The notes under the pieces: model-generated
Told to the model about the DNA's origin: nothing
The model's database searches: none
What the model saw: the letters and a program-made list of their open reading frames with translations, nothing else
NCBI GenBank assembly: GCA_032622095.1
Contig: CP136061.1
Location: 84,728,324 to 84,792,323 of the forward strand
Direction: 5' to 3'
DNA from: Siphonodentalium dalli
Taxonomy: Eukaryota; Mollusca; Scaphopoda; Gadilida; Siphonodentaliidae
DNA: 64,000 nucleotides
Position numbers and translations under genes: made by a program
Part shown: in pieces, positions 12,790 to 49,955 of the stretch
How the letters are laid out: the number at the start of each line of letters is the position of its first letter
Position numbering within the stretch: position 1 is the first letter of the stretch

Positions 12790-12909
12790 GGTTTGGTGAT
12801 AATTGTGATTCAGGCAGCAATATATGTGTTACACACTTAACATGTGATTCAACATGTAAATGTCCAGTTGCTAGCACATATTGGAATGGGTCTGATTGTA
12901 GTAACCCAA
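12790..12909 (+). CDS. Module exon 1: six-cysteine EB/EGF-like domain
   Basis: The acceptor is GGTTGATTTCAG|G and the donor is CCCAA|GTGAGT. The 120-nt exon enters and leaves in phase 1, giving 39 whole codons. Cysteines fall at residues 5, 12, 18, 22, 24 and 36, and the C-terminal part reads YWNGSDC. Spacing C-x6-C-x5-C-x3-C-x-C-x11-C resembles small extracellular EB or EGF-like modules, probably closed by three disulfides. NGS is a potential N-glycosylation sequon. The open frame extends into both flanks, but the splice sites and alignment with eight sister exons define the limits. This is the first of the plus-strand series; the likely product is a secreted or membrane-anchored multi-module protein of unknown function. 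Confidence 0.75.
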
Positions 12910-13047
12910 GTGAGTATATACATCACAAACTTATCACTGGGGAACAGACCTTATACCTTGGTTTTATTAGGTGTGGCTCCATAAAAATTAGTTGCAGACC
13001 TGTGCTGTTGTTTTACACCGTGCAAACAGAGCCCAATCTTTAAGGTA

Positions 13048-13098
<51 letters not shown>

Positions 13099-14121
13099 TA
13101 TGACCATGATATCCTCATTCACAGAAACCCTCTTGTTTTGCAGACAAACATTAAGAATGTTTTATAACTCCTGTTAGATTTGACAAGGATAATGAGGATT
13201 CCGTAGTTGGGAATAGAAAATTAAATATCTGAATGGAATTGACTTATTGGTTTTGGTCGATCCTGCGTACATGTAGCAGGGTAGAGACCTCTATGACTTT
13301 GATTGTCGTTTATAATCAAAATGGGTTTCCATGGCTTGGTTCTTAGTGTGTCAGACTAGCTGCGCCAGTGCGTTTGTTTGGACCCGGATCGATCCACCTT
13401 GATCTTCAACATTTAAAAAGTTGAATAAATTACTGTGTATGCCATGCTGAGGTATCAAAAGCAGTCATCATTGTGATTGTACGTATTGGGTTGGGGTGTA
13501 AGTGGCTGTCCCATGTACAACAATGTATGCATGTGATATGTATAAAGTGTATATAATAGATGTGGTGATGGTGTTATTCAAAATTTCAGATCTTTGCGTT
13601 TTATATTTATGTAAATAAAGTTTATTTGTGCATGAAGTGTTAAAATAACAGAACAACAGGTCATGTCAACCAGAAAACCTACTGGTATATGGACTTAAAA
13701 ACTAAGTATATATACAAGAACCATCACTGGTCAATTATTTTGTATTAGGTGTATCATTTCATAAACTTGTAACATGATCATCACAGTTTCATTTCATCAC
13801 AACTACATGTATGTTTTGGTGTCAGGCTTTTCCGGGGAAATTCCCAAACAACCAAATGAATACTTAGGGGGTCAGGATTAAATGTACCATGTGATATTTG
13901 TCAATTTTATCACATATATAGTGCCCATGTAATCACTGTCATTTTGTTGCAGAAGATATATTTTCAGCAAAACTTATCCTTAAAATGATCAGTACATGAT
14001 TCACCCACTGAAGGAAAGGTCACAAAATTGGATACTCAAAGATATTGAGGTTATGGTTTCAAAGGGTTCTGAAAGTGAATTTTTGTAAAGTGAAAGTGAC
14101 CGTTGCTTCCACATTTTTCAG
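12910..14121. other. Intron between module exons 1 and 2
   Basis: Non-coding, with an uninterrupted C homopolymer of about 46 bases at roughly 13049-13094. No repeat element with defined ends was recognised. Confidence 0.6.
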
Positions 14122-14262
14122 GGCAAACTTTTGATGATGGTTGTTCCCAAGGCCCAGAGGACTCGTGTGGCACTGACCTGACCTGTACAACTGTCACTGG
14201 AGGAGATAAATGTAGATGTACAGACAACAATAAGTACTGGAATTCAAACATCTGTGATATCC
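14122..14262 (+). CDS. Module exon 2: six-cysteine EB/EGF-like domain
   Basis: The acceptor is CACATTTTTCAG|G and the donor is GATATCC|GTAAGT. The 141-nt exon is phase 1 at both ends, with 46 whole codons. Cysteines lie at residues 7, 15, 21, 30, 32 and 44, and the tail reads KYWNSNIC. The exon opens with QTFDDGC, the same aromatic-x-acidic/small-C start as the sister exons. The loop between cysteines 3 and 4 is longer (8 residues) than in most. No other frame across this interval keeps the cysteine pattern. It can be joined to exon 1 without disturbing the frame. Confidence 0.75.
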
Positions 14263-14510
14263 GTAAGTAAACCATACAAATGATTTAATACTAGTCACAT
14301 TTAATTCTCCATTCTAAATGATTCCATTAAATAATATCAAAACTTTGTGTCAGTAGATATCCAGATATTTATGCCATTAATTTACTACAAATGTAATAAA
14401 CCTTAAAACAATCTTCTCAAATTTTAATACATGTTACTCTTCCGTGTACATAAAAACTTAAGTCTCTTAATTTTGACACAATACACCGCTTCAAGCCTGG
14501 CATTAATACT

Positions 14511-14730
14511 GATACAGTAATGCCCTAATTAATCGACTCCTTTAACCACAGCAGAATTATGGGTAACTGTTCAGGATTTAGTCGGAAATATGGCTTGTTG
14601 CCATTCATCGGAAAGCTCTCAAGAGCTTTCCGATGAATGGCAACAAGCCATATTTCCGACTAAATACTGAAAAGTTACCCATAATTCTGCTGTGGTTAAA
14701 GGAGTCGATTAATTAGGGCATTGTTGTATC
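14511..14730. mobile_element. Near-perfect 220-bp palindrome (fold-back element)
   Basis: Arms of about 108 nt meet at CGGAAAGCTCT-CA-AGAGCTTTCCG with only a two-base spacer and a handful of mismatches. Outer phrases are GCCCTAATTAATCGACTCC and GGAGTCGATTAATTAGGGC. It lies in the intron between module exons 2 and 3. The near identity of the arms implies recent origin or ongoing gene conversion. It is probably a fold-back MITE, but no target duplication is clear. Confidence 0.85.
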
Positions 14731-15075
14731 TTCAGTTTATTTACATTACTCTAACAAAATAAAAAATGCCTGATAGTTCAGATGTCTATCTTCATGTTTT
14801 AAACGATTGTGGCAGGATAGTGATTCTGAAAAACAGTATTTTCTTTCCATATGCCGATAATGTATACTTAAAATGTCCTTTTTGCTCAAATAATCTAATA
14901 TTTTATTGCTAGTGTTATTTATGTAATGATTTAAAATAATCTGTGTTGTAGACAAAGTCACGTGATTGGCACAATCACATGATTGTCGCATGTAAATAGA
15001 ATCACATGTATATTTTGACTAATTAATTTCAGTGTTGTGCATTGCATTGATACTTTTGCTCTGCATCACTGCACA

Positions 15076-16233
15076 CAGGCCTCAGCTCACAAGGCGACTC
15101 GGGCGAGATTGTCGCCTTACTGTCGCTGACTTCGCCCTATTGTCGCTCAAAGGCGAAATCGAAGTCGCCTTCAATTTTAGGGGGAAATTTTTTATTTTTT
15201 TTCTTAATTTTTTTTCTAGTTTTTTTTCGGACATGTCTGGACATGTCCGTATATAGATGAATTGTGGCGGCCATCCCAAAAAGAAACAGACGATGCAGAG
15301 CCAAAGACCCAAGTGTTTAAAATAAAAAACTAAATATGACCTATTGTTTTGTGTTGTTATTCCGTCGCCTTTGTTCCCTTTGCGGTAATGAATGTTAATC
15401 ACGAATGTTTTGACACGCTGAAAACACGATGAGATGTTCGCATCTGTGTTGTTACTGACCATCGTGAGTGTCACAAATAAATGTTTTAATTAACTTAAAA
15501 GACCGCCGTCCCCGCTTTTCAGATATAAAACAATTACGACATTATCAGAGTATGTACCAGGCGCTTCGGAAGTTCGTTTCGGTAACGCGTCGGACTTTTT
15601 GAAGAGACCGCGTCGGACTTTTTGAAGAGACCGAGCTTCCGTAAATAAAATAATGTCAAGTTTATTGCTTTAATCGGATTATACCAGTGATGTTGGCATT
15701 AATTAAGGGAGGCCATTAATTAATAAAAGCTTTTGCAACTCCTTTGTTAGTTAGTCCTTATTGTTTATTTTAGCGGACACCCACATTACAGCCGTGACCA
15801 AATTAAACTTAAAAAGTTACATGCATCATGAATCACGATTCAGACTGTACAAACGTATCTTCCAAACTGCAGTCTAGGAAATAATACTACTTTCATTTAG
15901 TTAAAAAAGTAACTATTACTGTAACTTGATAATTGTCTTGCTTAAATGATAGCTACACAAAACATTTCCAAAATTTTTAAATGCATAATTAAATAATAAC
16001 AATTAAAAAAATTAAGTAATTTCAGATAAAGTCAAATTTTTTTAGTTTTATTTGTTATTTTATCTTTTGAAATTTTTTTTTGTCAGATGTTATAAAATAA
16101 AGCGATATTTGAAAATTGTCAATTTTTGGTAGTCTCCCCACCCTGAAGTCTCCCTAAATTTCCTGAAGTCTCCCTAAATTTCCTGGAGGGAGACTTCAAG
16201 TCTCCCTGTTCTGGACCCCTAGGCTGAGGCCTG
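15076..16233. mobile_element. Non-autonomous hAT-like DNA transposon, 1158 bp
   Basis: Termini CAGGCCTCAGC and GCTGAGGCCTG form an 11-bp perfect inverted repeat. They are flanked by an exact 8-bp direct repeat ACTGCACA (15068-15075 and 16234-16241). An 8-bp target duplication and a CAG-starting inverted repeat are hallmarks of hAT-superfamily insertions. Inside are a TCGCC-rich block (15095-15165), two copies of GCGTCGGACTTTTTGAAGAG at about 15586-15632, and repeated GAAGTCTCCCTAAATTTCC near the right end. A 130-codon minus-strand frame (15082-15474) lacks recognisable transposase motifs, so the element probably depends on a transposase supplied elsewhere. Confidence 0.85.
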
Positions 16234-16639
16234 ACTGCACACTGGTATATGCTAAATGGTTATTTATCAGTCTTATATTGTGCAGTATTTTACTGGACAT
16301 TTATGCGTCCTTGTCCAGTTGACTAGGATAAATTATGCATGCTAAAAACGATTACGAATTCGATCGCGGTTCTTGAAGTTTCGTGCATAAGTGAAAATTC
16401 CATAAATTCCACAACTTTACTGTGAGTCTCCAATTCTATTCAGTGATGTCACCTACTGCATTCATACTGTTAGTAGATAGGTTCAGACAGCAAACTTCAA
16501 ACTTGAGTTACTGTTGAATCAATCTTGGAATGAAAGCAACTCATGGGAACGTTTGCCAATGAGCTGAAGGCCTGGGTGGCTTTGGAAAATAAACTACTAA
16601 CCACTGTCACTGAGACTCCCTCACGAGCGGGCACATTGC

Positions 16640-16927
16640 CCAAAATCTCAAGCACTTCGACGGTACCACTCAATAGAAAACATCGTCTAAATCAATCTGT
16701 GATCAATTGTAAATATTTACTTCTCGATTCAGGACGCAACTATAGGGCGATAAACTAGCAAAAATGATTTCACCATCCAGATTCATTGCATTTTATTAAT
16801 ATATAAGAATGACGGTGTGTGCTGGTGTGTGTTGTCATTTTGGATATAATATTTATAAAAATAACTACTTTGAGCAAGATTATTCTCCATTTCTTTCCAT
16901 CGAAAGAACTTTTTCACATCACTTTAC
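16640..16927 (-). repeat. Dispersed 280-bp repeat, copy 2 (inverted)
   Basis: This is the reverse complement of 11266-11545, aligned over its length with moderate divergence. It ends about 25 bases before the acceptor of module exon 3, so part of this intron's 3' region is repeat-derived. Confidence 0.7.
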
Positions 16928-16952
16928 AATCTAATGATTTCCCTTTGAACAG

Positions 16953-17083
16953 GACTGTCATTTAATGAGACATGTGGAGCTGATGATATGTGTTCCACTG
17001 AGTTCAGTTGTCAGAATGGAACATGCATGTGTTCCAATGCATCAGATTATTGGGATGGAACAAACTGTACCACTCTTATGTAA
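16953..17083 (+). CDS. Module exon 3: six-cysteine domain lacking a donor, in-frame stop
   Basis: The acceptor is CCTTTGAACAG|G. From there phase 1 gives cysteines at residues 7, 13, 19, 24, 26 and 38, with the tail DYWDGTNC. It is a close paralogue of module exon 5, sharing EFSCQNGTC and the SN-x-SDYW stretch. Where exon 5 has its donor (ATGC|GTATGT), this exon reads ACTC-TTATGT, so the obligatory GT is TT. Translation instead continues two codons (Leu-Met) to TAA at 17081-17083. It may be an alternative last exon producing a shorter protein, or a decaying exon. The later GT at 17080 would leave phase 2 and break the frame. An AATAAA at 17759 could serve as a distant poly(A) signal. It carries several N-glycosylation sequons. 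Confidence 0.65.
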
Positions 17084-18355
17084 TGCATGCTGCTAGAGAA
17101 ACCCTCTTGAATCTAGAATTATCCTGAATCTTACCTCATTAGAGCAAATTGCACTGTAGCTGTGTAGCACTTCATCTCTAATGATCTCTTGTTCCAATAT
17201 TTCCTCTCTTCTGTCAAAGAACTGAATGATTTTGTTTTTATATCTTCTTGGGTTATGTTTTATTATTCATATTATTGTATACTGTGAGCCAATGTGTATA
17301 TCTATACTATACCACTCATGTTTTATTATAATTTTCGAGTATAATTAAATATTGCCATTTGGATAATAAGTACATATATTGGCTGCAAATATATTTTCAA
17401 TGGGTGATGTTTTTCATTATAAATTTTTTTTGTAAAAATGATTGAAGTGATTGATCAGAACAATTCCATGAAATTCAACTATTCAGTACGATCCTATCCT
17501 ATCCATGCACTCATACGCTATATTCTGAGTCATAGAAAATGTTTGTAATTTGCTGTCTTTTTGTGAAAGGAATATATATATAAATAAGTCTAAAAGGTAT
17601 ATCTTCTTAATCCCTACAATGTCACATGTTATTCTAGTTGAATCAGTCATTACAAGAATGAGTACTTTCAAGATGGTCAACCTTTTCAGGGCCGTAATTA
17701 AAACAACAACATAGTTTTTATTAATATCGATTTCAAGACCCCAAATAGCTATTTTGTGAATAAAATACAGATCAAATTGAAGGAGGGATATATTATTTGC
17801 CTACAACGGCATAATTAATTGGTTAATTTCGATCATATTTTGCGGTGAATCTCTTAGCTGATCTGCTATGTTCTGTTTTTAAGGCTGCTAACAAGATATA
17901 GAGTTCTCTTTCTTGGTTTGCTCTTGATACACTCCAAAAAATTTTGCTCTGATTTCTGTTCTAAGAATAGCCCCTAAATCTGTGTCACAAATGTCGCACT
18001 AGTAAGAAATTATAAATAACATTTATATTAATTGATAGAAACTTTTCCGGACAGGTGTCCTTGTTTATAATTTATCATTTTATACTGCGGAAAGTATATA
18101 AAACTTTCTAGGGAAGAGATAGACCATCTTTGTTTTATGGTGTTCACATCAGAATAAGCAATGGGGGAAGCCACATTGTCCTAGGCCCACTAAGAGGGTA
18201 CCTTCCTTTGCACACCAAAAAGCAATACATACTGCTAATGATGCACAGACAATCTGCTATCAGAGTGGTGTAAGAACAGTCAAATAGTCTTTAATGAAAG
18301 ATCTGCCAAAACTCAGTTTTCAAAATTATTAATACCTATAAAAAGAAATTCATAT
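17084..18355. other. Intron or 3' flank, no recognisable gene
   Basis: AT-rich, with no domain-bearing open frame. AATAAA at 17759-17764 is a candidate poly(A) signal if module exon 3 is terminal. This is weak, because such hexamers are frequent in AT-rich DNA. Confidence 0.45.
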
Positions 18356-18357
18356 CT

Positions 18358-19330
18358 AAATCCTGTGTTTATACTAAGTAGCGGAAACCATCGGATAATG
18401 TATAACTCTATAAATGGTTAATGGACTGAGATATTCCTCCTGTGTTTATACTAAGTAGCGGAAACCATCTGATAATGTATAACTCTATAAAGGATTAATG
18501 GACTGAGATATTCCTCCTGTGTTTATACTAAGTAGCGGAAACGATCTGATAATGTATAACTCTATAAAGGATTAATGGACTGAGGTATTCCTCCTGTGTT
18601 TATACTAAGTAGCGGAAACCATCTGATAATGTACAACTCTATAAAGGGTTAATGGACTGAGATATTCCTCCTGTGTTTATACTAAGTAGCGGAAACCATC
18701 TGATAATGTATAACTCTATAAAGGGTTAATGGGCTGAGATATTCCTCCTGTGTTTATACTAAGTAGCGGAAACCATCTGATAATGTATAACTCTATAAAG
18801 TGTTAATCGACTGAGATATTCCTCCTGTGTTTATACTAAGTAGCGGAAACTATCTGATAATGTATAACTATAAATGGTTAATGGACTGAGATATTCCTCC
18901 TGTGTTTATACTTAGTAGCGGAAACTATCTATAATGTATAACTCTATAAAGGGTTATTGGACTGAGATATTCCTCCTGTGTTTATACTAAGTAACGGATA
19001 TCATCTGATAATGTATAGTTCTATAAAGGGTTAATGGACTGAGATATTCCTCCTGTGTTTATACTAAGTAACAGATATCATCTGATAATGTATAACTCTA
19101 TAAAGTGTTAATCGACTGAGATATTCCTCCTGTGTTTATAATAAGTAGCGGAAACCATCTTATAATGTATAACTCTATAAAGGGTTAATGGACTGAGATA
19201 TTCCTCCTGTGTTTAAACTAAGCATCGGAAACAATCTGATGTCTCACTCTATAAAGGGTAAATGGACTGAGATATTTCCCCAGTGTTGATACTAGCTGTG
19301 TATTCCACCAACACCTAGCGGAAACCTTCT
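18358..19330. repeat. 77-bp minisatellite, about 12 copies
   Basis: The unit contains TCCTGTGTTTATACTAAGTA, GCGGAAACCATCTGATAATG, TATAACTCTATAAAGGGTTA and ATGGACTGAGATATTCC. Spacing between successive TGTGTTTATAC phrases is about 77 bp. Copies diverge progressively near the right edge. It lies in the intron just before module exon 4. Confidence 0.9.
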
Positions 19331-19466
19331 GATAATGTATAAATCTATGCATATCTATTATTCATTGCATTCTTTTATCTTTTGTGCTGAATATTCTTTG
19401 ATAGTTTAGATGTAGAGAAATATAGAGGGAATTTTAGTCACTGGAGATTCTATTATTTCCTTCCAG

Positions 19467-19610
19467 TGAAAGCTTTGGGAGATTCCTGTACTACAGCTCC
19501 ATCATCCTCGGAGGATCCTTGTACAGGAGATATGACTTGTCCCAACGTCGCCAACAGCGTATGCTCATGTGCCAGCGATAGATACTGGAGTGGTAGCTCT
19601 TGTCTGCCGA
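19467..19610 (+). CDS. Module exon 4: six-cysteine EB/EGF-like domain
   Basis: The acceptor is TTATTTCCTTCCAG|T and the donor is CTGCCGA|GTAAGT. The 144-nt exon is phase 1 at both ends, with 47 whole codons. Cysteines lie at residues 7, 18, 24, 32, 34 and 45, and the tail reads RYWSGSSCLP. The first inter-cysteine loop is the longest of the series and is Ser/Pro/Glu-rich. It is most like module exon 8, which shares a K-x-x-x-(D/E)-(S/T)-C start, the GDMTC/GAMTC core and the C-terminal CLP. Confidence 0.75.
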
Positions 19611-19899
19611 GTAAGTGTATTGATAATGTAGGGCAGTAATAGCTTGTGTTTCTATTATATTGGTCATGTGGTAAGGAAACTAGTAGTAGTGACATCTTAA
19701 TCAGAATCTGAAACTATTTCAAGGATAACATTGGGCAATCTTGCTACATTGAAACTTAGAAATCAGACTAATATAATTATGTTTTTGATTTAAATTACTA
19801 TGCAGAATTGTTGAGAATAGTGACTTAAGTGAATTTTTTAGATGATTATGCATGTAACTGACATATATAAATTACACCCACATCACCTCAGAACGAGAA

Positions 19900-20250
19900 G
19901 TCAAACAATCTGACGCAGGTGAATCTAACACAGATACAGAGTTTAGGAACATCAAAAAATGCCGACTAACCATTCCTGCCCAGACATGAAAAATCTCCAC
20001 ACGTGAAGGTCAATATCTCCTAAGACTAATTACCGTTATATAAGGCCATGAAAAATGAAGGAGACCACAACATCAGTGACCTCTCATATCATGTCATACA
20101 AGTCTTACATATGACCCAGACATTGAGACCAACACTGGGCATCGGTGAAACATAGAATTTAACTGGATGTTCCTATTAAGGAAAATATATCCAGAGGGTA
20201 TGAACAGGTCAGACACCATATGGTGAATAATATTAATCTCATATCTGACA
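19900..20250 (-). repeat. Dispersed roughly 335-bp element, copy 1
   Basis: Its reverse complement aligns to 48781-49115. Shared phrases include GATTAATATTATTCACCATA, ACCCTCTGGATAT (CCCTCTGGATAT in the other copy), AACATCCAGTT, CATGATATGAG and, further out, AAGGCCATG/AAGGCCAGG and CCTCCACAC. It is an interspersed repeat of unknown class; no protein is recognised. Confidence 0.65.
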
Positions 20251-20723: not shown

Positions 20724-20878
20724 ATATCCACACTTTTTCAGTGTATATGGGTTATATCTCATGAGTGATGACAAAACATTGAATTGCCATGAGTGGCTTT
20801 AGCCGCAAGTGGAAATTCAAATGTTTTGTCATCACGAATGAGATTTAACCCATATCCTCTGAAAAAGTGTGGATATTC
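20724..20878. repeat. Fold-back element, 65-nt arms
   Basis: ATCCACACTTTTTCAG...GATGACAAAACATTGAATT is mirrored by AATTCAAATGTTTTGTCATC...CTGAAAAAGTGTGGAT around a spacer of about 25 nt (20783-20810). It is followed by a related direct repeat unit at 20878-21060. Confidence 0.8.
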
Positions 20879-21075: not shown

Positions 21076-21089
21076 AATCATTCACTATG

Positions 21090-22770: not shown

Positions 22771-22784
22771 ATCACTCTGAACAG

Positions 22785-22913
22785 GATTAACATTCAATGA
22801 TACATGTGAGGCTGATACAGAAGGCATGTGCGGAACTGAGTTTAGTTGCCAGAATGGAACATGCAGATGTTCCAATGAATCTGATTACTGGAACGGAACT
22901 AATTGTAGAATGC
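22785..22913 (+). CDS. Module exon 5: six-cysteine EB/EGF-like domain
   Basis: The acceptor is CACTCTGAACAG|G and the donor is GAATGC|GTATGT. The 129-nt exon is phase 1 at both ends, with 42 whole codons. Cysteines lie at residues 7, 15, 21, 26, 28 and 40. The tail reads DYWNGTNC. It is strongly similar to module exon 3 both in protein and in its last intronic bases (CTGAACAGGA). It has four potential N-glycosylation sequons (NDT, NGT, NES, NGT), more than most sister exons. Unlike exon 3 it retains an intact donor. Downstream lies a 16-kb gap before the next module. Confidence 0.75.
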
Positions 22914-30604: not shown

Positions 30605-33600
30605 CCGCTGGTGTGTTCTGTCGACATGTATAGGTCCTGGGGTACATCACTGTGACAACGGCATTCGATATGGCGTCATTTTGGGCTTCACGTCAACTGA
30701 AAAAACTCAGCAAATCATCCTAGGTGCGATTTAAAACCTCCGGATTCATCGACAGACGGACTTTCGGCCTGAATCAGTGTTCTGTGTTTTACACTAAGAA
30801 TTCATCACATCTGATCGAATTGAGTGTGCTCACGTATGGAATGTCGACACTGTTATGACCAGGTGATATTATTGAACAAATATTTAAAGGATATCTCGTT
30901 TTTTTAATTTTAAATTAATTCAAATTTAATTTAAAATTAAACATAAAATCGAAAAGATGGATGTACAAGGAGCATGGTTACCTTCGCTCGTATATACAGG
31001 GTGGGATAACACGATTGCCGTTTATATATGGCCAAGGACGTGAATTTGGAGATATTCAGTCCAATATAGTTTGCAACAGAATCGCGACTATATTCTGAGT
31101 TTTACGTCTTATTTTCGGACAAGTGTCACGTTTGTCCAAAACGAACAAACTGCGGGTTGTCGACATATATATGTCGTGGGGTGTATCACCATTACATAGC
31201 GATTCGAACCGGCGTCATGTGCGCTTTTATTCTACCGATAAACACAGCAAAACTTAGGTGCGGTTTGAAACCCCCGGGTAGACTTGATGTGAATATTCTG
31301 AGTTTTACGTCTTATTTTCGGACAAGTGTCACGTTTGTCCAAAACGAACAAACTGCGGGTTGTCGACATATATATGTCGTGGGGTGTATCACCATTACAT
31401 AGCGATTCGAACCGGCGTCATATGCGCTTTTATTCTACCGATAAACACAGCAAATCTTAGGTGCGGTTTGAAACCCCCGGGTAGTAGACTTGATGTGAAT
31501 GTTCGGTGTTTTACACTAAGAATTCATCAATCTGATCGAATTGAGTGTGCTCACGTATGGAATGTCGACACTGTTATGACCAGGTGATATTATTGAACAA
31601 ATATTTAAAGGATATCTCGTTTTTTTTATTTTAAATTTATTCAAATTTAATTTAAAATTAAACATAAAATCGAAAAGATGGATGTACAAGGAGCATGGTT
31701 ACCTTCGCTCGTATATACAGGGTGGGATAACACGATTGCCGTTTATATATGGCCAAAGACGTGAATTTGGAGATATTCAGCCCAATATAGTTTGCAACAG
31801 AATCGCGACTATATTCTGAGTTTTACGTCTTATTTTCGGACAAGTGTCACGTTTGTCCAAAACGAACAAACTGCAGGTTGTCGACATATATATGTCGTGG
31901 GGTGTATCACCATTACATAGCGATTCGAACCGGCGTCATGTGCGCTTTTATTCTACCGATAAACACAGCAAAACGTAGGTGCGGTTTGAAACCCCCGGGT
32001 AGACTTGATGTGAATGTTCGGTGTTTTACACTAAGAATTCATCAATCTGATCGAATTGAGTGTGCTCACGTATGGAATGTCGACACTGTTATGAACAGGT
32101 GATATTATTGAACAAATATTTAAAGGATATCTCGTTTTTTTTATTTTAAATTTATTCAAATTTAATTTAAAATTAAACATAAAATCGAAAAGATGGATGT
32201 ACAAGGAGCATGGTTACCTTCACTCGTATATACAGGGTGGGATAACACGATTGCCGTTTATATATGGCCAAGGACGTGAATTTGGAGATATTCAGCCCAA
32301 TATTGTTTGCAACAGAATCGCGACTATATTCTGAGTTTTACGTCTTATTTTCGGACAAGTGTCACGTTTGTCCAAAACGAACAAACTGCGGGTTGTCGAC
32401 ATATATATGTCGTGGGGTGTATCACCATTACATAGCGATTCGAACCGGCGTCATGTGCGCTTTTATTCTACCGATAAACACAGCAAAACGTAGGTGCGGT
32501 TTGAAACCCCCGGGTAGACTTGATGTGAATGTTCGGTGTTTTACACTAAGAATTCATCAATCTGATCGAATTGAGTGTGCTCACGTATGGAATGTCGACA
32601 CTGTTATGACCAGGTGATATTATTGAACAAATATTTAAAGGATATCTCGTTTTTTTAATTTTAAATTTATTCAAATTTAATTTAAAATTAAACATAAAAT
32701 AGAAAAGATGGATGTACAAGGAGCATGGTTACCTTCGCTCGTATATACAGGGTGGGATAACATGATTGCCGTTTATATATGGCCAAGGACGTGAATTTGG
32801 AGATATTCAGTCCAATATAGTTTGCAACAGAATCGCGACTATATTCTGAGTTTTACGTCTTATTTTCGGACAAGTGTCACGTTTGTCCAAAACGAACAAA
32901 CTGCGGGTTGTCGACATATATATGTCGTGGGGTGTATCACCATTACATAGCGATTCGAACCGGTGTCATGTGCGCTTTTATTCTACCGATAAACACAGCA
33001 AAACTTAGGTGCGGTTTGAAACCCCCGGGTAGACTTGATGTGAATATTCTGAGTTTTACGTCTTATTTTCGGACAAGTGTCACGTTTGTCCAAAACGAAC
33101 AAACTGCGGGTTGTCGACATATATATGTCGTGGGGTGTATCACCATTACATAGCGATTCGAACCGGCGTCATATGCGCTTTTATTCTACCGATAAACACA
33201 AAGCAAATCTTAGGTGCGGTTTGAAACCCCCGGGTAGTAGACTTGATGTGAATGTTCGGTGTTTTACACTAAGAATTCATCAATCTGATCGAATTGAGTG
33301 TGCTCACGTATGGAATGTCGACACTGTTATGACCAGGTGATATTATTGAACAAATATTTAAAGGATATCTCGTTTTTTTAATTTTAAATTTATTCAAATT
33401 TAATTTAAAATTAAACATAAAATCGAAAAGATGGATGTACAAGGAGCATGGTTACATTCGCTCGTATATACAGGGTGGGATAACACGATTGCCGTTTATA
33501 TATGGCCAAGGACGTGAATTTGGAGATATTCAGTCCAATATAGTTTGCAACAGAATCGCGACTATATTCTGAGTTTTACGTCTTATTTTCGGACAAGTGT

Positions 33601-34235
33601 CACGTTTGTCCAAAACGAACAAACTGCGGGTTGTCGACATATATATGTCGTGGGGTGTATCACCATTACATAGCGATTCGAACCGGCGTCATGTGCGCTT
33701 TTATTCTACCGATAAACACAGCAAAACTTAGGTGCGGTTTGAAACCCCCGGGTAGACTTGATGTGAATGTTCGGTGTTTTACACTAAGAATTCATCAATC
33801 TGATCGAATTGAGTGTGCTCACGTATGGAATGTCGACACTGTTATGACCAGGTGATATTGAACAAATATTTAAAGGATATCTCGTTTTTTTTATTTTAAA
33901 TTTATTCAAATTTAATTTTAAAATTAAACATAAAATCGAAAAGATGGATGTACAAGGAGCATGGTTACCTTCGCTCGTATATACAGGGTGGGATAACACG
34001 ATTGCCGTTTATATATGGCCAAGGACGTGAATTTGGAGATATTCAGCCCAATATTGTTTGCAACAGAATCGCGACTATATTCTGAGTTTTACGTCTTATT
34101 TTCGGACAAGTGTCACGTTTGTCCAAAACGAACAAACTGCGGGTTGTCGACAAATATATGTCGTGGGGTGTATCACCATTACATAGCGATTCGAACCGGC
34201 GTCATGTGCGCTTTTATTCTACCGATAAACATAGC
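30605..34235 (+). repeat. 515-bp satellite with higher-order structure
   Basis: Each full unit of about 515 bp includes CTGCGGGTTGTCGACATATA, CGATTCGAACCGGCGTCATG, GAAACCCCCGGGTAGACTTG, AAGAATTCATCAATCTGATC and a TTTAAATT-rich spacer. Successive CGACATATATATGTCG palindromes occur at about 31159, 31361, 31882, 32398, 32911, 33114, 33637 and 34150 (the last altered). Spacing is 203, 521, 517, 513, 203, 523, 514, so a block of one truncated plus three longer units (about 1.75 kb) is itself repeated. The first unit (30605-30860) is clearly diverged and the last is cut short. Repeated open frames of 74-117 codons just follow the repeat. Confidence 0.92.
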
Positions 34236-37720: not shown

Positions 37721-37721
37721 A

Positions 37722-38882: not shown

Positions 38883-39017
38883 GGCATCCTTTTGGTCCGG
38901 GCTGTACAACATCAACTGGTGAAGACTCTTGTGTCTCTGGGCTGCAATGTCTGGGTGGATCTTGCAAATGTTCAAATTATCAGAACAACTACTGGACGAA
39001 TGCTGCCTGTGTAACTC
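38883..39017 (+). CDS. Module exon 6: six-cysteine EB/EGF-like domain
   Basis: The acceptor is TTATTTATTACAG|G and the donor is GTAACTC|GTGAGT. The 135-nt exon is phase 1 at both ends, with 44 whole codons. Cysteines lie at residues 7, 16, 22, 27, 29 and 42, and the exon starts HPFGPGC. The aromatic pair before the last cysteine is YWTNAAC, so the usual glycine is Asn. It is nearly identical to module exon 9, including flanking introns, as part of the segmental duplication. Confidence 0.8.
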
Positions 39018-40984: not shown

Positions 40985-42310
40985 TTTCATTGTGTAGACC
41001 TCATGAATGGTGCTGAATGGGTGTGATGTTCAGTTCATTATGTAGACCTCATGAATGGTGCTGAATGGGTGTGATGTTCAGTTCATTTTGTAGACCTCAT
41101 GAATGGTGCTGAATGGGTGTGATGTTCAGTTCATTTTGTAGACCTCGTGAATGGTGCTGAATGGGTGTGATGTTCAGTTCATTGTGTAGACCTCGTGAAT
41201 GGTAATGAATGGGTGTGATGTTCAGTTCATTGTGTAGACCTCATGAATGGTGCTGAATGGGTGTGATGTTCAGTTCATTGTGTAGACCTCATGAATGGTG
41301 CTGAATGGGTGTGATGTTCAGTTCATTGTGTAGACCTCATGAATGGTGCTGAATGGGTGTGATGTTCAGTTCATTGTGTAGACCTCATGAATGGTGCTGA
41401 ATGGGTGTGATGTTCAGTTCATTGTGTAGACCTCATGAATGGTGCTGAATGGGTGTGATGTTCAGTTCATTGTGTAGACCTCATGAATGGTGCTGAATGG
41501 GTGTGATGTTCAGTTCATTATGTAGACCTCGTGAATGGTGCTGAATGGGTGTGATGTTCAGTTCATTATGTAGACCTCGTGAATGGTGCTGAATGGGTGT
41601 GATGTTCAGTTCATTATGTAGGCCTCATGAATGGTGCTGAATGGGTGTGATGTTCAGTTCATTTTGTAGACCTCGTGAATGGTGCTGAATGGGTGTGATG
41701 TTCAGTTCATTATGTAGACCTCATGAATGGTGCTGAATGGGTGTGATGTTCAGTTCATTATGTAGACCTCGTGAATGGTGCTGAATGGGTGTGATGTTCA
41801 GTTCATTTTGTAGACCTCGTGAATGGTGCTGAATGGGTGTGATGTTCAGTTCATCGTGTAGACCTCGTGAATGGTGCTGAATGGGTGTGATGTTCAGTTC
41901 ATTATGTAGGCCTGTCGTGAATGGTGCTGAATGGATGTGATGTTCAGTTCATTATGTAGACCTCGTGAATGGTGCTGAATGGGTGTGATGTTCAGTTCAT
42001 TATGTAGACCTCGTGAATGGTGCTGAATGGATGAGATGTTCAGTTCATTATGTAGGCCTGTCGTGAATGGTGCTGAATGGATGTGATGTTCAGTTCATCA
42101 TGTAGACTTGTCATGAATGGTTCTGAATGGATGTGATGTTCAGTTCATGATTGGTATAATTATAATGGAGACAATATATGTTTCATTATGTAGACCTGTC
42201 ATGAATGGTGCTGAATGGACGTGATTTCAGTTCATGATTGCTATAATTATAATGGAGACAATATATGTTTTAATATGTAGACCTGTCATGAATGGTGCTG
42301 AATGGATGTG
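40985..42310 (+). repeat. 48-bp satellite, duplication copy 1
   Basis: Roughly 27 units of TTCATTATGTAGACCTCATG plus AATGGTGCTGAATGGGTGTG plus ATGTTCAG (48 bp). A CTCGTG variant alternates with CTCATG in patches, and the last units shift to the 50-bp CTGTCATG form seen in copy 2. Flank phrase TATAATGGAGACAATATATG is repeated at 40968, 42157 and 42250, marking a duplicated edge. Confidence 0.95.
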
Positions 42311-42526
42311 ATTCATGATTACTGAGATATAATGAAAAGTTATTTTAGCACAATTAAATATCATCTGGTATGCCGAAGATAAAAGATGGTCTTTAAGCTG
42401 TGTCTGTGATATGCATATCATTATCACCATCGATCAACACACACAATAGTTACTTTATGCAGTAGTTCAATTGTCACAAACCTGGAATTGCTCATTGTAG
42501 TCTTTATTATCCATAATGCTTTCCAG

Positions 42527-42661
42527 GAAAAAATGTGAATGCTGGTTGTCAAAGAGCCCCCGAGAACTCATGTATGGTTGGACTTACTTGCGTCACTGGA
42601 AGTAATACCTGTACCTGTAATGACGGTAACCTATACTGGACTGGATCAGCTTGTGAAGATA
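42527..42661 (+). CDS. Module exon 7: six-cysteine EB/EGF-like domain
   Basis: The acceptor is AATGCTTTCCAG|G and the donor is GAAGATA|GTGAGT. The 135-nt exon is phase 1 at both ends, with 44 whole codons. Cysteines lie at residues 7, 15, 21, 28, 30 and 42, with the tail LYWTGSAC. The start KNVNAGC is the most divergent of the series. The VGLTCVTGSNTCTC core resembles module exon 2 more than the others. It is placed directly after the satellite array, within the block that should be duplicated beyond the window's right edge. Confidence 0.75.
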
Positions 42662-42767
42662 GTGAGTTCCTAATTAACAGATACATTGTGACACGATAGA
42701 GGCTACATTTTTTGTTGAAACTTTCATATCAATCACAACTAACATTAGAGATCCTGGGAATCACAAT

Positions 42768-43275
42768 CTTTTCGTCTAATCTAACCTCGAATCAGGGGAA
42801 GGATTTCACATCGAATCGAACCTCAACTCGAACCACCTTAATCAAAAGTTCAGTGACTATAACAATATGATTTTGTCGCCGGCGATTATAGAAGACATAA
42901 CAAGTAATTTAATCTTTTATCGTGGCTTTTCACTGTAATATTTTGGCTGAATGTACTGGAATATTTTACTGTTAAATGGAATCAGAAGGAGGTATTGTCA
43001 GTACATTAAATGAAAAGATTTTCAGGGATTAACGCAGAGAATTGGATGTTTAACTTTAGCACTTGGCATATCATGCATTGGTGCAGAGGGAGACGCCGTA
43101 AAGTATGCCTAGAGGTCAAGGGTTGAGGAGTCTAGAATGGTGTATACCCTCATGTTTGGTACAATATACATACTGGGGAAGGTTTGATAATTGATCAGAT
43201 CTTAGCGATAATTTCAAATCGAATCAAATCTTTTTTTGTAATTACACATTGAATCGAATCTCGAGCGTTTGCAGG
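42768..43275. mobile_element. Degraded copy of the hAT-like family
   Basis: CTCGAATCAGGGGAAGGATT and CACATCGAATCGAACCTC (42786-42830) and, at the other end, AAATCGAATCAAATC and CATTGAATCGAATCTCGAG (43218-43264) have the spacing and orientation of the subterminal repeats of the 884-bp element. Terminal repeats have decayed. Confidence 0.55.
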
Positions 43276-43276
43276 A

Positions 43277-43466
43277 GCCTGAAATATTGCAAAAACCATA
43301 TGCCAATGCATTCTCTTTTATATCAGAGTCTCCCATAGGACCTTGTAAGCCAGTGCATTCTCTTATATATGCAAGGCTCCCTATAGGAGACTATCATATA
43401 TAAGAGGATGCACCGGCACAGGATCTTTAATGCTGCACCAGAGCGGCTCCTGTCATGAAAGGGTTA
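43277..43466. mobile_element. TTAA-type MITE with two hairpins
   Basis: It contains two TTATAT(ATG/CAG) hairpins (43312-43345 and 43355-43415) and ends CTCCTGTCATGAAAGGGTTA, the same end as the MITE at 6750-6921. The left end is not clear. It is the only copy of the 5-8 kb family found in the right half of the window. Confidence 0.55.
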
Positions 43467-43735
43467 GATAACACTCCTGTATGGAGCCTCACATGGACCC
43501 AAGCAGACGACAGTTAACAGTGCATTGGTCTCTCTGTCTGGGGCTCCATAAAGGGTTATATAACACTTCCATATGGAGCCTCACATGGACCCAAGCAGAC
43601 GACAGTTATCAGTGCATTAGTCTCTCTGTCTGGGGCTCCATAAAGGGTTATATAACACTTCCATATGGAGCCTCACATGGACCCAAGCAGACGACAGTTA
43701 TCAGTGCATTAGTCTCTCTGTCTTGGGCTCCGACT
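43464..43735. repeat. Three tandem 91-bp units
   Basis: AGGGTTATATAACACTTCCA, TATGGAGCCTCACATGGACC and CAAGCAGACGACAGTTATCA recur three times at about 91-bp spacing. An open frame across them follows the repeat because one unit is close to, but not a multiple of, three; I see no protein evidence. Confidence 0.9.
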
Positions 43736-44350
43736 TAGAGTGATATCAACACACTGGCATGAATTCACCACCCAACTGGACTATTGAGTCTCCCCAAGAA
43801 CAAGTGGCTTGGTCAGATAAAGTGGTGTGTGAATAGCAGTCATACACTATTCAAATCTCATGCGAAGTTGTGACCCTTGCGCAAGATCACTCGTACTATG
43901 ACACCCTAGTTGTACATAGATGGGTAATAGGCATGTTTGGCAAGCTTAACTTAGTGCGGAGGTATGAGTATGAATGTGTACATGTCTCACCGCTCTAGTG
44001 AAGCACCTGTAAAATGGCGCGGCTCAACAACTGATGTAATGACATAATAATTCAAGCACTTATCAGCTTGTGTGATCATCTATATAAAAACTATCAATTA
44101 TTGTCCCCCCAAATTGTTTTCTGTCAAAATGAAATGCTCTCTAAATTAGGCTGACCTCGATTTAGGTCGACATTCCAAAATTTAAGAATGGAAACAAGTC
44201 AATCCTGAAAATAGACCTACTAGGCATATCTGTTTTTAGATCGCTTTTAATGAGCAAAACTATGATATGACATAAGGAATCCGAATATTTGTTGAACATG
44301 CCACTAAATATCGCTTTTGGTGGGGGTTAAGTTTTTGCCCCATATTTGCG

Positions 44351-44680
44351 CTACTATACCATATTTCTATCAGACTGACTCTGTTCAGTTGAACATTCTA
44401 AGCCGGCCTGGCAAACCTGGGGTCTCTAGTTGTATCTTTATCCAGAGTTAGACGAATGGACCAGTATATATCACCATTACATTTTTAAACATAATTAAGA
44501 TAATAGACATTATTTTGACCTAGACATTTACATGATGAATAGCGAAGACAAAAATCACAGTTACTGTCTGCAGTGGTGTTTGTTTTTATCCTTATTGCTG
44601 TGACTTTTGTCTTCGCTACTCATCATATAAATGTTTATGTCAAAATAACAGAGTCAGTCTGATAGAAATATCCAAAATAC
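44351..44680. repeat. Interrupted palindrome
   Basis: Inner arms GACATTTACATGATGAATAG plus CGAAGACAAAAATCACAG and their inverse (44581-44640) surround a loop of about 45 nt. Outer arms TTTCTATCAGACTGACTCTG (44364) and CAGAGTCAGTCTGATAGAAA (44649) match perfectly, but on the left roughly 120 nt of unrelated sequence separates outer from inner arm. This looks like a fold-back element later interrupted by an insertion. Confidence 0.75.
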
Positions 44681-45162
44681 CAAACTGGTACCTCATGCTT
44701 TCAATTTTCTATTGGAAATTTACAGCTTAAGAATATATCCCCGATATGGTTGTAAATTTTGCCACTGATGCTGAGTGTTGGCTATATATATATAGATCAA
44801 AATCTTAACAATTTTACCAAAAATATATAAATATTTAACTTTTAATCAAAACAGGCTAATTTCAGATTATTGCACACGAAATACTGTTTTGAAAATAAAA
44901 CTACCAGAACAGTTTCAGCCTATTTTCACTCTGAAACTTGCAACTGATTTGCCAATCATGCAAATTGTTGTGATGACGCCCGCCTTGTCAGCACATCCCT
45001 GATCAAGATAGTGATTAAAATCAGCTCTAGATAAAGCGATATAGACAGGTGAAAATCAGCTGAAAGGAAGACCGCCACAGTCTGGAGGCTGAGTGTTAGC
45101 TAGGGATATTGAAGTTTTCACATTTCTTTTTAGCACCTCTCTTTACTTTTATTTATCTCCAG

Positions 45163-45291
45163 AGAAGAGTGTGACAGAGACATGTAGTACATCAGCACCA
45201 GAGAACCCGTGCCAGGGAGCCATGACTTGTGTTGGTGGTCGATGTTTTTGTACGAGTGACAAATACTGGGATGGAACTAACTGCTTGCCTC
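45163..45291 (+). CDS. Module exon 8: six-cysteine EB/EGF-like domain
   Basis: The acceptor is TTTATCTCCAG|A and the donor is TGCCTC|GTGAGT. The 129-nt exon is phase 1 at both ends, with 42 whole codons. Cysteines lie at residues 7, 16, 22, 27, 29 and 40, with the tail KYWDGTNCLP. An overlapping second AG two bases later would shift the frame, so the first AG is preferred. It is most similar to module exon 4 in its start and its CLP end. Confidence 0.75.
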
Positions 45292-47200
45292 GTGAGTTTA
45301 AATCCAGTCAACTCAGATATTTTTTTAATTCTGGACGAAATTCATTTCAGCACTGGGATTGAGTTTGTTCATTGTTAGGACTTGCACCATTTAAACTTTT
45401 GATCATTGTAACTAATTATATACATATATAACTAGCTGATGGACCCGACCTCATCTGGGCTATAGGGATTTCTTTGCCAGAAACATGACAATATGAGCAA
45501 GGACACGGTTGTATGCGAAATTGGACCCGATTTGACCTTGAATTGACCATTTTGAAGGTCAAGGTCAGGTATGGGTGAACCACATTTCCATCTTTATTAG
45601 AACAATCTGTTTTAAATAGGCCGATCAGTCTTCCTGGCACAGTGCTCATTGGTGAAAGGGAAGAAAGTCTAAATTTCTTGAATTTTAAAATTTTATTTGT
45701 TTGAAGATTTGTACATGTTTATACTGAATATTCTCAGTAAATAATTATTTTGTGTCTAGATCTTTCAAAAGAGATCATAATTTTTTTTTTTTTTAAAGTA
45801 TTTATCAATATATATAGGCACTACTTAGTTCCAATATCATATTGGTGATGCCCATACAGGAAGCTATCGAAATACATATATATGATATCATTATTATTAT
45901 TGGACCAAGTGCATGATACAGTATTTCCTGTATATATATTATTTATTATCTTCCGTTAAACTAAGAGCTTCAGAACAAACATTATTATACATAATAATTC
46001 AAATATGTACACAAATGGGGTGAACAATTGAAAAAGTAGACATATTAATACATAGCCACAGACAAGATATACCTGTGACATGAATCAAAGGTATGCATAT
46101 AATATACCAGGGTTTCCGATAGGGATAAAATATTGGGGCCCCTTTTCTTGTGGCTAGGGGAAAAACACAATTGCCATCGCTGCCGATGTTGATGAGGAAT
46201 TAAGATACACCTACACATACAGTATACATGTATAAACTTGCTTCTGGTAAGTTCTACTCTGGTTATATCATAGGTCAAATGGTATGCCCAAAGGACGAGC
46301 CCATTTTTGTACAGACAGATAAATGATGGCAATCAGCGGCGGCTGCCAATGATTTCACATGCTTTGTGAATTCCTCGACCCTTGATCTCCAAGTATGGAA
46401 TGGAGTTTACCGAGTGGTAAACACTACAAACTACAGGATAGATTTATCTCCCTTACTATGATCACGTCAGGCAGAGTTATCTCCAATCGCTCCTCATGGA
46501 GTTTGAGTCAATTCATCTACGGATGGGGCGCTGCTTGCAGTTTGCATGCAAATGTCAATGGTTGAGGAATCCAGAATGTCTGTGGCATAATTAAACATGA
46601 CTGGTTATAAACTATAGTGGGTGGGGGGGGGGGGGCTATGTGCAAACAAACTTGAGCTGCCCATATTTAACTATAGTTTTAAAATTAGGAATATGGTGCA
46701 TACTGTCGATAATCACACCAATCATGATTAAAGAGAATCTAGTGAAGTCGAAGGAAAAAAATCCTTGTCTTTGACTGAACACAATGTTGACAACATAATC
46801 AGGATTAGATTACACTTCTGTCGTGCTTTGGTACTTTTATTTAACTCTACCGGTAGTTCACATTATATACGAAAGTGATGTATCATGCATGGATGGAGGA
46901 AAACTTGGCTAGGGGATCCCATGCCGGTATAGCGGAAACCCTGAATATACATATGCAGACAGATATATGACAGTCATGCACACAGACGTACAGACATGCA
47001 GATAGTCATGCATGCATACAGACAGACAGTTGTTCATAAACATACATACATATGGACAGACAGGTACACAGGTAGATCAACAGACAGGTAGACAGTCAAG
47101 CAGACATAAACAAGCACGTATATGATATATTAATTCACTGGATAGAGACTTACGTGAGATAACCAGCCTCACATGCAAACTATTTTCTACATAACTCGAC
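45292..47200. other. Intron, no recognisable gene; simple repeats
   Basis: A poly-G run lies at about 46622-46634 and a diffuse ACAG/CATA-rich tract at 46965-47110. A block at 45435-45610 with GGTCAAGGTCAGG and GCTATAGGGATTTC phrases may be an interspersed repeat. No domain-bearing frame was found. Confidence 0.45.
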
Positions 47201-47283
47201 TTTGCACATTTCCTTCCTAGAGTTATTCATCCTTGTTCAAGTAAAAGGTGTGGTATTTATAAAGGGTTATTTATGCAGCCATT

Positions 47284-47820
47284 AATTCAGTCAATGATTT
47301 CAACCATCAGTCAATGATTTCAACCATCAGTCAATGAGTTTAGTCATCAGTCAATGAGTTTAACCATCAGTCAATGAGTTTAACAATTAGTCAATGATGT
47401 TAACAATCAGTCAATGAGTTTAACCATCAGTCAATGAGTTTAACAATCAGTCAATGATTTTAACAATCAGTCAATGAGTTTAACCATCAGATAATGAGTT
47501 TAACCATCAGTCAATGAGTTTAACCATCAGATAATGATTTCAACCATCAGTCAATGAGTTTAACCATCAGTCAATGAGTTTAACCATCAGTCAATGATTT
47601 CCACCATCAGTCAATGAGTTTAACCATCAGTCAACGAGTTTAACCATCATTCAATGAGTTTAACCATCAGTCAACGAGTTTAACCATCATTCAATGAGTT
47701 TAACAATCAGTCAATGAGTTTAACCATCATTCAATGAGTTTAACCATCAGTCAATGAGTTTAACCATCATTCAATGAGTTTAACCATCAGTCAATGAGTT
47801 TAACCATCAGATAATGAGTT
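47284..47820 (+). repeat. 20-bp tandem array, copy 2 left part
   Basis: About 27 units of TCAATGAGTTTAACCATCAG with strong homogeneity of the GAGTTT variant, unlike the more mixed copy 1. Confidence 0.95.
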
Positions 47821-48635
47821 TCCCAAAAAATGTTGAGGAAACAATGCCGACAGGTGTGGTGTTTTTAATCAAATGCACATGTAACGATTGATTTAGTTTG
47901 TTATTGTTCATCACAAACACATGTTGATAACACATGTTTATGAAATAAAGAAGATTGTTGCCCTTTCTAACGACGTCTTCTTTATGGTATCCGACTAGTG
48001 TCTCCTATTTTTGACGCAAGTTACGAAATTCACCGTGGCGCTCAATAGTGCAAATTCAATAATAACAGCTGCGAGTACATGTTGTAAGCATGAGATTGAC
48101 ATGCATAAACATTTTGGGAATGCAGAGATCATTAACAGTTGTTTTTGGAAAGTTACTCATAATTCATTAGCATAATCACAGTTGAATAATCGTGGGCATA
48201 AATGCGGGATAATGGATCTATTTCAGTTAAATAATGCCTTCTCAGCATACTATTGGTCTGTTCTCATCATTATTCTCATTGTACACCTTCTAATTAACTT
48301 CTTATCACCGCATAGGCTAAAATTACGACATGTGATTGATATGATGCTAACTATTTGAATGTGAGTTTGATCAATATACTTATGTGGTGAAATATTGCAA
48401 ATATAACAGTATATATTGATTTAAAATGTAACTGAGGACCTGTTTACACATGGCATGCATTACCATGGTGATTACCATCACAATTATATGACGTCATCCA
48501 TTGGCAGGTAGCACAAATTGGACAGTTGTCACTGGTCACAACAATATATGGGTGTCCATACCTACCACATCTATAAATACTAGTATGAATGTCCCACATG
48601 TGAGACAAAGAATTTCCATGTAAACTGCTGTAAAC

Positions 48636-48685
48636 CCGGTGTCCTGGATAATTTACCTCTGTAAATTCGGTTGCGAAAGAGTTAA
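48636..48685. mobile_element. Right end of the TTAA-type element, copy 2
   Basis: GGTGTCCTGGATAATTTACC and TCGGTTGCGAAAGAGTTAA match 38190-38242. The rest of the element is missing or replaced, apart from the TTTTTAATCAAATGCACATG segment at 47862. Confidence 0.75.
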
Positions 48686-48780
48686 CTGTTGAATAATCAA
48701 TGGTAATTAACCGTTGAATAATCAGTGGTTGTAACAATCAGTCAATAATTTTATCCATTGAATAATCAATGATTTTAACT

Positions 48781-49115
48781 GATTAATATTATTCACCATA
48801 AGGTGGCTTATATGCTCATGCCCTCTGGATATTTGGTTCTTAGTTGGAAAATCCAGTTTTGTATTGTTTCGCCGACATCGAGTATTGTGCTCGATGTCTG
48901 AGTCAGTGTTTGAGACATGTGACATGATATGAGTGGTAGTTATGTTTACTGACTAGCTTTAGGGGGCATTTGATATATCCCTAATGTGTTGTTGTATTCT
49001 TGTTGTTAGAGTTTGAAAAGATAGGTGATGGTTCCTGGCCTTGTATGAAGGACTTTTGTATAAGTGGATATTGGTTTCCATGTGTGGAGGTTTATCATGT
49101 TTTATTGTGGGATAT
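48781..49115 (+). repeat. Dispersed roughly 335-bp element, copy 2
   Basis: It matches the reverse complement of 19900-20250. It lies in the middle of the 20-bp array and is flanked on both sides by GATTTTAACT. That may be a target duplication or just array sequence. Confidence 0.65.
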
Positions 49116-49117
49116 GA

Positions 49118-49605
49118 TTTTAACTGTTGAATATTCAATGATTTTAACCATAAGTCAATGATTTTAACCATAAGTCAATGATTTTAATTGTTAAATATTC
49201 AATGATTTTAACCATCAATCAAATGATTTTAACCATAAGTCAATGATTTTAACCATAAGTCAATGATTTTAATTGTTGAATATTCAATGATTTTAACCAT
49301 CAATCAAATGATTTTAACCATAAGTCAATGATTTTATCAGTTGAATAATCAATTATTCAAACCGTGGAATAATCAATGATTTTAACCATCAGTCAATGAT
49401 TTTAACCATCAGTCAAAGATTTTAACCTCCAAAAAATGAATTTAACTGTTGAATAGTCAATGATTTTAACCATCCGTCAATGATTTCAAACATCAGTCAA
49501 TGATTTTAACCATCAATCAATTAGTTTAACCATCAGTCAATGATTTCAACCATCAGTCAATGATTTTAACCAAGAGATTCAATGATTTTAACCATCAGTC
49601 AATGT
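49118..49605 (+). repeat. 20-bp tandem array, copy 2 right part
   Basis: TCAATGATTTTAACCATAAG/CAG units mixed with TTGAATATTCAATGATTTTA variants, ending at the conserved pre-exon block. Confidence 0.9.
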
Positions 49606-49820
49606 AAATAGAACAAATATAAATGTATGACATCAGGATTGGCTAATACAAGACAAGCTTATAATAGGCCAAAGAGTTCAAAGATATCTCAAAGGTAAAG
49701 ATTAACAACACTTGTTAGAAAGACAAGTACAGAATTTAATTGTGTTTTCCATGAGATGTGTAGAGCAGCCACACTGGTAATGCTGATATATGAATGTCAC
49801 TAGATTGTTATTTATTACAG

Positions 49821-49955
49821 GGCATCCCTTTGGTCAGGGCTGTACAACATCAACTGGTGAAGACTCTTGTGTCTCTGGGCTACAATGTATGAGTGGATCT
49901 TGCAAATGTTCAAATTATGCGACTGAGTACTGGACGAATGCTGCCTGTGAATCTC
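49821..49955 (+). CDS. Module exon 9: six-cysteine EB/EGF-like domain
   Basis: The acceptor is TTATTTATTACAG|G and the donor is GAATCTC|GTGAGT. The 135-nt exon is phase 1 at both ends, with 44 whole codons. Cysteines lie at residues 7, 16, 22, 27, 29 and 42, starting HPFGQGC and ending EYWTNAAC. It differs from module exon 6 at only a few residues, clustered in the loop before YW and after cysteine 3. It is the last module in the window. The downstream satellite must be spliced out as intron if the transcript continues. Confidence 0.8.

Follow-up and report, generated by a model that had tools for sequence, protein, structure and literature searches.

The 64,000-nucleotide (nt) stretch of the scaphopod Siphonodentalium dalli genome analysed here (the window; C1:84728324-84792323, where C1 is contig CP136061.1 of a 2.23 Gb genome in 9 contigs, C1 to C9) carries nine short exons on its plus strand, each encoding one complete six-cysteine module. 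We consider it probable (roughly 0.7) that they belong to a gene whose extracellular product, secreted or anchored in the membrane, is made of tandem EB-like modules and fibronectin-III (FN3) domains, in a family grown by duplication of exons and exon blocks. The exons have phase 1 borders at nearly invariant positions, paralogous clusters occur elsewhere in the genome, FN3 exons lie at five of the clusters, and the cysteine (Cys) and tyrosine-tryptophan (YW) codons are constrained.

Nine symmetrical module exons in the window

A loose six-cysteine pattern matched nine modules on the plus strand of the window and none on the minus strand, one module per exon, with exon lengths of 120-144 nt (N = 9). 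The exons and their module types (m1 to m8) are as follows.

12790..12909, plus strand: exon of type m1 (GFGDNC...), from six-cysteine pattern and splice sites; borders 14/10
14122..14262, plus strand: exon of type m2 (GQTF...), from six-cysteine pattern and splice sites
16953..17075 (end nominal), plus strand: exon of type m3 (GLSF...), acceptor intact, donor lost
19467..19610, plus strand: exon of type m4 (VKALG...), from six-cysteine pattern and splice sites
22785..22913, plus strand: exon of type m5 (GLTF...), from six-cysteine pattern and splice sites
38883..39017, plus strand: exon of type m6 (GHPFG...), opening the first m6-m7-m8 block, from splice sites and tree
42527..42661, plus strand: exon of type m7 (GKNV...), first block, from splice sites and tree
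45163..45291, plus strand: exon of type m8 (EKSV...), first block, from splice sites and tree
49821..49955, plus strand: exon of type m6, second block copy, from splice sites and tree

Cys1 to Cys6 and the YW near the last cysteine are invariant in all nine aligned modules, and both splice sites are intact, in phase 1, in eight of the exons. An earlier reading of the letters alone (the sequence-only reading) had described nine plus-strand exons of these lengths, eight intact donors, the cysteine spacings and the invariant YW, all of which were borne out. It had also given phase 1 to both ends of all nine, which holds for every readable border; exon 3 has no phase-1 donor in range. The expected exon 3 donor reads TT, where a near-identical paralogue at C1:85.136 Mb has GT; exon 3 is therefore probably skipped. 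That symmetrical modules can be skipped without frame damage, which the sequence-only reading gave as known, agrees with an array whose phase-1 borders are intact except for a single missing donor. When window positions 1-50000 were shuffled with dinucleotides preserved, 60 shuffles gave 2 six-cysteine matches in total and never a module flanked by both splice sites; the observed counts are 9 and 8. A chance origin of the nine-module array is excluded.

The position of the borders was then read in 42 modules, namely those matching the pattern in the window and in the stretches taken from paralogous loci (part of the 113 genome matches given below, with a frame-broken copy on C3 and a giant exon left aside). 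In 39 of them the distance from the acceptor to the Cys1 codon is exactly 20 nt and that from the Cys6 codon to the donor exactly 7 nt, both borders being in phase 1. The other three comprise the m1 exon and its counterpart at C1:557627 (both 14/10, phase 1-1) and the donorless exon 3. This is the class 1-1 arrangement of exon-shuffled extracellular modules, in which every module has an exon of its own.

The array continues downstream, followed by FN3 exons

A profile of the modules was run over the window and 100 kb on each side. No module was found in the 100 kb upstream, and six further modules were found downstream.

103271, 106587, 108252, 120716, 125430 and 134876 (window coordinates), plus strand: downstream modules, from the profile

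A fragment at window coordinate 123751 (10 bits) was set aside. A splice-site matrix, which was trained on the eight intact exons and so describes a fit and not an independent test, was applied to window coordinates -99980 to 50000 and 102000 to 163000. In the first range the eight sites above the chosen score (12 at a looser one) were the eight intact exons; in the second, the five above the score (of 9) were four module exons and one FN3 exon, and the modules at 120716 and 125430 were missed, below threshold. The nine window exons are the 5' part of a larger array, probably of one gene. The sequence-only reading had placed the array at 12790-49955; the exons are correct and the end at 49955 is not, as further modules and FN3 exons follow on the same strand.

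Within this gene the m6-m7-m8 block recurs, at 38883/42527/45163 and again at 49821/103272/106588, followed by another m6 at 108253. The full order is m1 to m5, the repeated m6-m7-m8 block, three diverged modules, FN3 and FN3. The first FN3 exon (FN3-1, window coordinates 159029-159310) scored 36.4 bits with the fn3 profile (PF00041, cut-off 25), and the second (FN3-2, C1:84898198-84898413) scored 32.3 bits, its paralogue giving 32.1. FN3 exons also read as phase 1-1. Just upstream of the intact FN3-1 exon, at 158860-158960, there is a partial, degraded duplicate of its start.

The 5' end of the gene, with its first exon, was not found. An in-frame ATG at 12696, upstream of exon 1, was rejected as the start: the acceptor is retained at C1:557627, but no counterpart of the ATG was seen there. 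When the upstream region was compared in translation with C1:540-580 kb, shared repeats dominated and no new exon was among the matches listed.

A paralogous family amplifying different module types

A genome search with the nine joined modules returned at least 113 matches (104 of 172 first-look candidates scored). They lie on C1 at ~0.55-0.68, 52.87-53.08, 79.5, 81.4-81.5, 82.3, 84.74-84.84, 85.13-85.21 and 246.4-246.9 Mb and on C3 near 211.1 Mb, with two single weak matches on C1 and C9. The C1:0.55 Mb cluster, its module types assigned by position in the query, runs m1, fourteen m2 (two partial), two m5, m6, m7, m8, m7 and then two FN3 exons; the remaining clusters have fewer module types, and the order is not followed throughout. 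In a tree of the 42 modules (support values not inspected), modules of one type mostly group together whichever cluster they come from; the m4 exon stands beside m8, and the three diverged modules are on long branches. The family is expanding, and different module types are amplified in different clusters.

FN3-1 gave eight matches genome-wide: itself, four at module clusters on the modules' strand (53-56% identity), and three weaker ones elsewhere on C1.

C1:0.696, C1:85.215, C1:81.487 and C3:211.152 Mb, same strand as the modules: FN3-1 relatives at module clusters, from the genome search

FN3-2 was found in the window gene, in three of the four other FN3-bearing clusters, and weakly at three further C1 loci.

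One relative is built in another way. At C1:53064315-53073314 (minus strand), a stop-free frame of 3000 codons encodes 69 modules in 2969 residues, with 414 cysteines, that is, six per module. This giant exon (8.9 kb) has, as read from the sequence, an acceptor and a donor at the same 20 and 7 nt spacing, and nine residues separate each Cys6 from the next Cys1, which is what precise intron removal would leave. It seems to have arisen by intron loss and subsequent tandem duplication inside one exon.

Selection acts on the cysteine scaffold

Selection was examined in eight hand-chosen pairs of paralogous exons, which are not strictly independent; one planned pair was dropped, its pieces being of unequal length. 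The 61 nucleotide differences resolved into 12 synonymous and 41 non-synonymous codon changes. None of the 41 fell in a Cys or YW codon, where 8.9 were expected at random, and 0 of 5000 simulations combined the lack of such a change with the lack of a stop. The total of non-synonymous changes was not reduced (41 versus 44.0 expected; 21% of simulations were as low). Codons outside Cys/YW fit the neutral expectation (P = 0.36 for excess) and would also fit relaxed selection. Changes per pair were few and uneven: the ratio of non-synonymous to synonymous divergence (pN/pS) was below 1 in the m8 and m5 pairs and about 0.8 to 3 in the m6 and m7 pairs, where each pair has only 1 to 3 synonymous differences. 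Nothing in the eight pairs pointed to positive selection in the loops. With no Cys/YW change and a neutral-like ratio elsewhere, we conclude that the disulphide scaffold is constrained and the loops not detectably so. Neutral ratios between exon paralogues had been named beforehand as evidence that would tell against a module-cassette gene, and on this point the result is split, constraint at Cys/YW arguing for such a gene and the neutral-like remaining codons against it.

Relation of the modules to EB and EGF domains

The translations of the nine modules, when joined, scored 32.9 bits with Pfam EB (PF01683, cut-off 24.3) in five stretches, the query being inexact at three of the eight junction residues. 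The first 258 residues of the giant exon gave 41.6 bits, also above the cut-off. Taken one by one, none of the nine exons reached any Pfam cut-off; with EB alone, five of the nine gave sub-threshold scores of 13.9-16.9 bits. The profile search proposed by the sequence-only reading, in which each exon translation was to be compared with EB, EGF and related models, thus failed for single exons and succeeded, with EB, for the joined nine. By hand count, the best EB stretch in the joined protein (residues 73-116) begins at Cys5 of module 2 and ends shortly after Cys5 of module 3, and Pfam borders and exon borders are therefore out of register. A genome scan with EB listed eight matches, on C5 and C6 and none at module loci (150 of 289 candidates scored); the scan works exon by exon, so that this negative largely repeats the single-exon failure.

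EGF family profiles remained below cut-off on the window exons. EGF_2 reached 15.9 bits (cut-off 22.1) and EGF_integrin 18.2 bits (cut-off 27), each in one of nine exons, and EGF_Teneurin at most 11.5 bits (cut-off 24.3) in two of nine. None of the 150 matches listed in a genome scan for EGF lay at the window locus (150 of 3146 candidates scored). EGF membership was therefore rejected on the profile scores; of the proposed EB/EGF resemblance, the EB half is supported by the joined translation. An AlphaFold2 model of the module, built on the nine sequences, had a predicted local distance difference test (pLDDT) score of 83 and a predicted template modelling (pTM) score of 0.55, with two of the five models below 65. 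Foldseek comparison with the PDB gave nine matches, none significant (best E = 2.8) and none of them an EGF structure. We file the modules as probably EB-like by sequence.

Satellite and intron repeats

A satellite with a unit of about 50 nt fills the m6-m7 intron in both blocks.

50152..64000, on to ~102000 (~52 kb), plus strand: 50-nt satellite in the intron after the second m6 exon, from repeat analysis
40986..42148, plus strand: short array of the same satellite (~24 copies, 48-nt unit) in the first block's m6-m7 intron, from repeat analysis

Matches to the satellite in the genome numbered 355, and those listed all lie in the second-block m6-m7 intron (C1:84.778-84.830 Mb; 13 of 14 candidates scored). 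Both in-window m6 exons are preceded by arrays of a 20-nt repeat. The intron after the m2 exon holds an inverted repeat of 109 nt, with arms 96% complementary and a loop of 2 nt (window 14511-14730), and at window 31090-34209 units of ~203 nt, each with the same open-frame fragment, are repeated and probably represent a repeat.

Proposed architecture and alternatives

The module exons would be spliced together to give a product that begins, on its N-terminal side, with a row of small EB-like modules, each disulphide-bonded and encoded by its own exon, and goes on with FN3 domains. Because each exon is phase 1 at both ends, exons or exon blocks could be duplicated or lost with the reading frame undisturbed. 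Such a protein would presumably be extracellular, and the modules would likely make up a rod or stalk held by disulphide bonds, with variable loops exposed for adhesion or for contact with a ligand, the FN3 domains serving as a membrane-near spacer. The proposal of the sequence-only reading that this is a module-cassette gene of a secreted or surface protein is supported by the duplication of symmetrical 1-1 exons and by the FN3 exons that follow in phase. That reading is thereby borne out in part; the splice diversity and the recognition or matrix roles that it also suggested are conjectural.

A number of observations weigh against this architecture. Besides the failure of single exons with Pfam, the lack of a significant fold match and the neutral-like codons outside Cys/YW, expected parts of the gene were missed. 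A search for a signal-peptide exon (ATG, hydrophobic core and phase-1 donor) at window coordinates -19999 to 13500 gave 8 candidates, none convincing among the 6 listed. A transmembrane or terminal exon was not among the exons recognised in the 3' region, which was partly read, and the second half of FN3-2, present in three paralogues, was not found in the window gene. FN3 exons and modules do not always accompany each other: weak relatives of both FN3 exons stand side by side at C1:97.79, 98.37 and 256.08 Mb (minus strand) with no module among the matches listed, which slightly lowered our confidence in the architecture. In addition, the 81-Mb cluster has one module before and one after its FN3 exon. 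One intron, the one holding the 52-kb satellite, measures ~53 kb. Finally, part of the family is decaying, since the donor of exon 3 is lost and a frame-broken copy of the m5 module exon stands in the C3 cluster (C3:211094680-211094920).

We asked whether the gene encodes a receptor-type protein tyrosine phosphatase, with EB-like modules and FN3 domains outside the cell, a transmembrane helix, and phosphatase domains within it. On the same strand as the second paralogue (C1:85.13-85.22 Mb), canonical phosphatase exons, including the signature GVGRTGTF (Pfam, 62.2 and 36.9 bits), lie 76 and 88 kb after its FN3-1, and the FN3-1 of the window gene matches a Dep-1 FN3 profile below threshold (22.5 bits, cut-off 26). 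However, among the listed matches phosphatase exons follow one of the five FN3-bearing clusters, and not the window gene, and the phosphatase exons near 85.29 Mb may belong to a gene of their own. A phosphatase-like match at C1:85.017 Mb was rejected as the window gene's own tail, because it resembles a fragment found in many places, including C3 arrays, and is a copy of this dispersed sequence. We regard a phosphatase receptor as unlikely. A tyrosine-kinase tail was also rejected, no kinase being among the listed matches near module clusters (145 of 743 candidates scored).

Alternative inclusion of symmetrical module exons into many isoforms, as in a Dscam-like cassette, appears less likely again. 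The exons whose borders can be read are 1-1 and could replace one another in frame, and one donor is missing in an otherwise intact array, but symmetry permits alternative use and does not demonstrate it. Moreover, the module types differ and their order is largely kept in two clusters, as in a constitutive tandem protein. Least probable is an array of pseudo-exons in decay whose frames recent duplication has kept open: one of nine donors is lost, a C3 copy is frame-broken, 52 kb of satellite lies within one intron, and change outside Cys/YW is neutral-like with no overall non-synonymous deficit, but none of the 41 non-synonymous changes falls in a Cys or YW codon, where 8.9 were expected, none of the 5000 simulations lacked both such a change and a stop, and exact borders are kept in 39 of 42 modules.

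Several other phosphatase and kinase sequences were recorded in the genome. The tyrosine-phosphatase-like fragment is arrayed, mostly at 167-nt spacing, at C3:298.705-298.708 and 300.418-300.420 Mb (minus strand), with single copies at C1:0.37 and 85.017 Mb and other places. A genome scan for tyrosine phosphatase gave at least 152 matches (150 of 344 candidates scored), suggesting a large expansion, with clusters at C5:43.8-45.3 and 80.7-82.9 Mb and at C6:199.1-199.3 Mb. At C2:149.83-150.59 Mb (minus strand), dozens of frames of ~281 amino acids with near-identical protein kinase profile scores, many spaced ~2.4-2.9 kb apart, form a large tandem array.

The extracellular protein of EB-like modules and FN3 domains thus remains our preferred explanation. 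A bolder form of it, which we hold to be doubtful, is a lineage-specific receptor family, possibly with phosphatase tails, which diversifies its ectodomain in that each paralogue amplifies a different module type, selection acts on the disulphide scaffold alone while loops drift freely, and at one locus 69 modules have been fused in one intron-free exon. If true, it would be an ongoing germline form of receptor diversification. The locus also offers a clear example from nature of class 1-1 exon duplication that is still going on: related genes amplify different types, one donor has been lost in an otherwise intact array, and one related locus seems to have shed its introns before its modules multiplied inside a single exon. 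The system allows a test of whether a disulphide module of an extracellular protein can evolve when constraint is limited to its scaffold.

Comparison with known systems

This mode of building genes is well known, and the window gene is otherwise an ordinary modular extracellular gene. In the literature searched, which left most subscription journals outside, no description was taken as matching the architecture. One exon per module in phase 1-1 is the textbook pattern for EGF-like domains, with which the window modules also have six cysteines and size in common, whereas no EGF profile reaches its cut-off on the window exons. Cystine-knot peptides appeared as non-significant fold matches (2ll1, E = 2.8; 1ixt, E = 10) and as a sub-significant profile match (PcFK1, E = 0.04); these are free peptides, whereas the window modules are parts of a large protein. 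FN3-containing receptor phosphatases of the PTPRJ/Dep-1 type resemble the family in the FN3 domains after the modules and in the phosphatase domain downstream of one paralogue. The phosphatase domain here is adjacent, at one of five FN3-bearing clusters, and may belong to a separate gene; EB-like modules are not known to be part of PTPRJ. The EB module (PF01683) shares its cysteine order with the window modules and recognises their joined translation above its cut-off, differing in that no single window exon passes and in the register of the domain borders.

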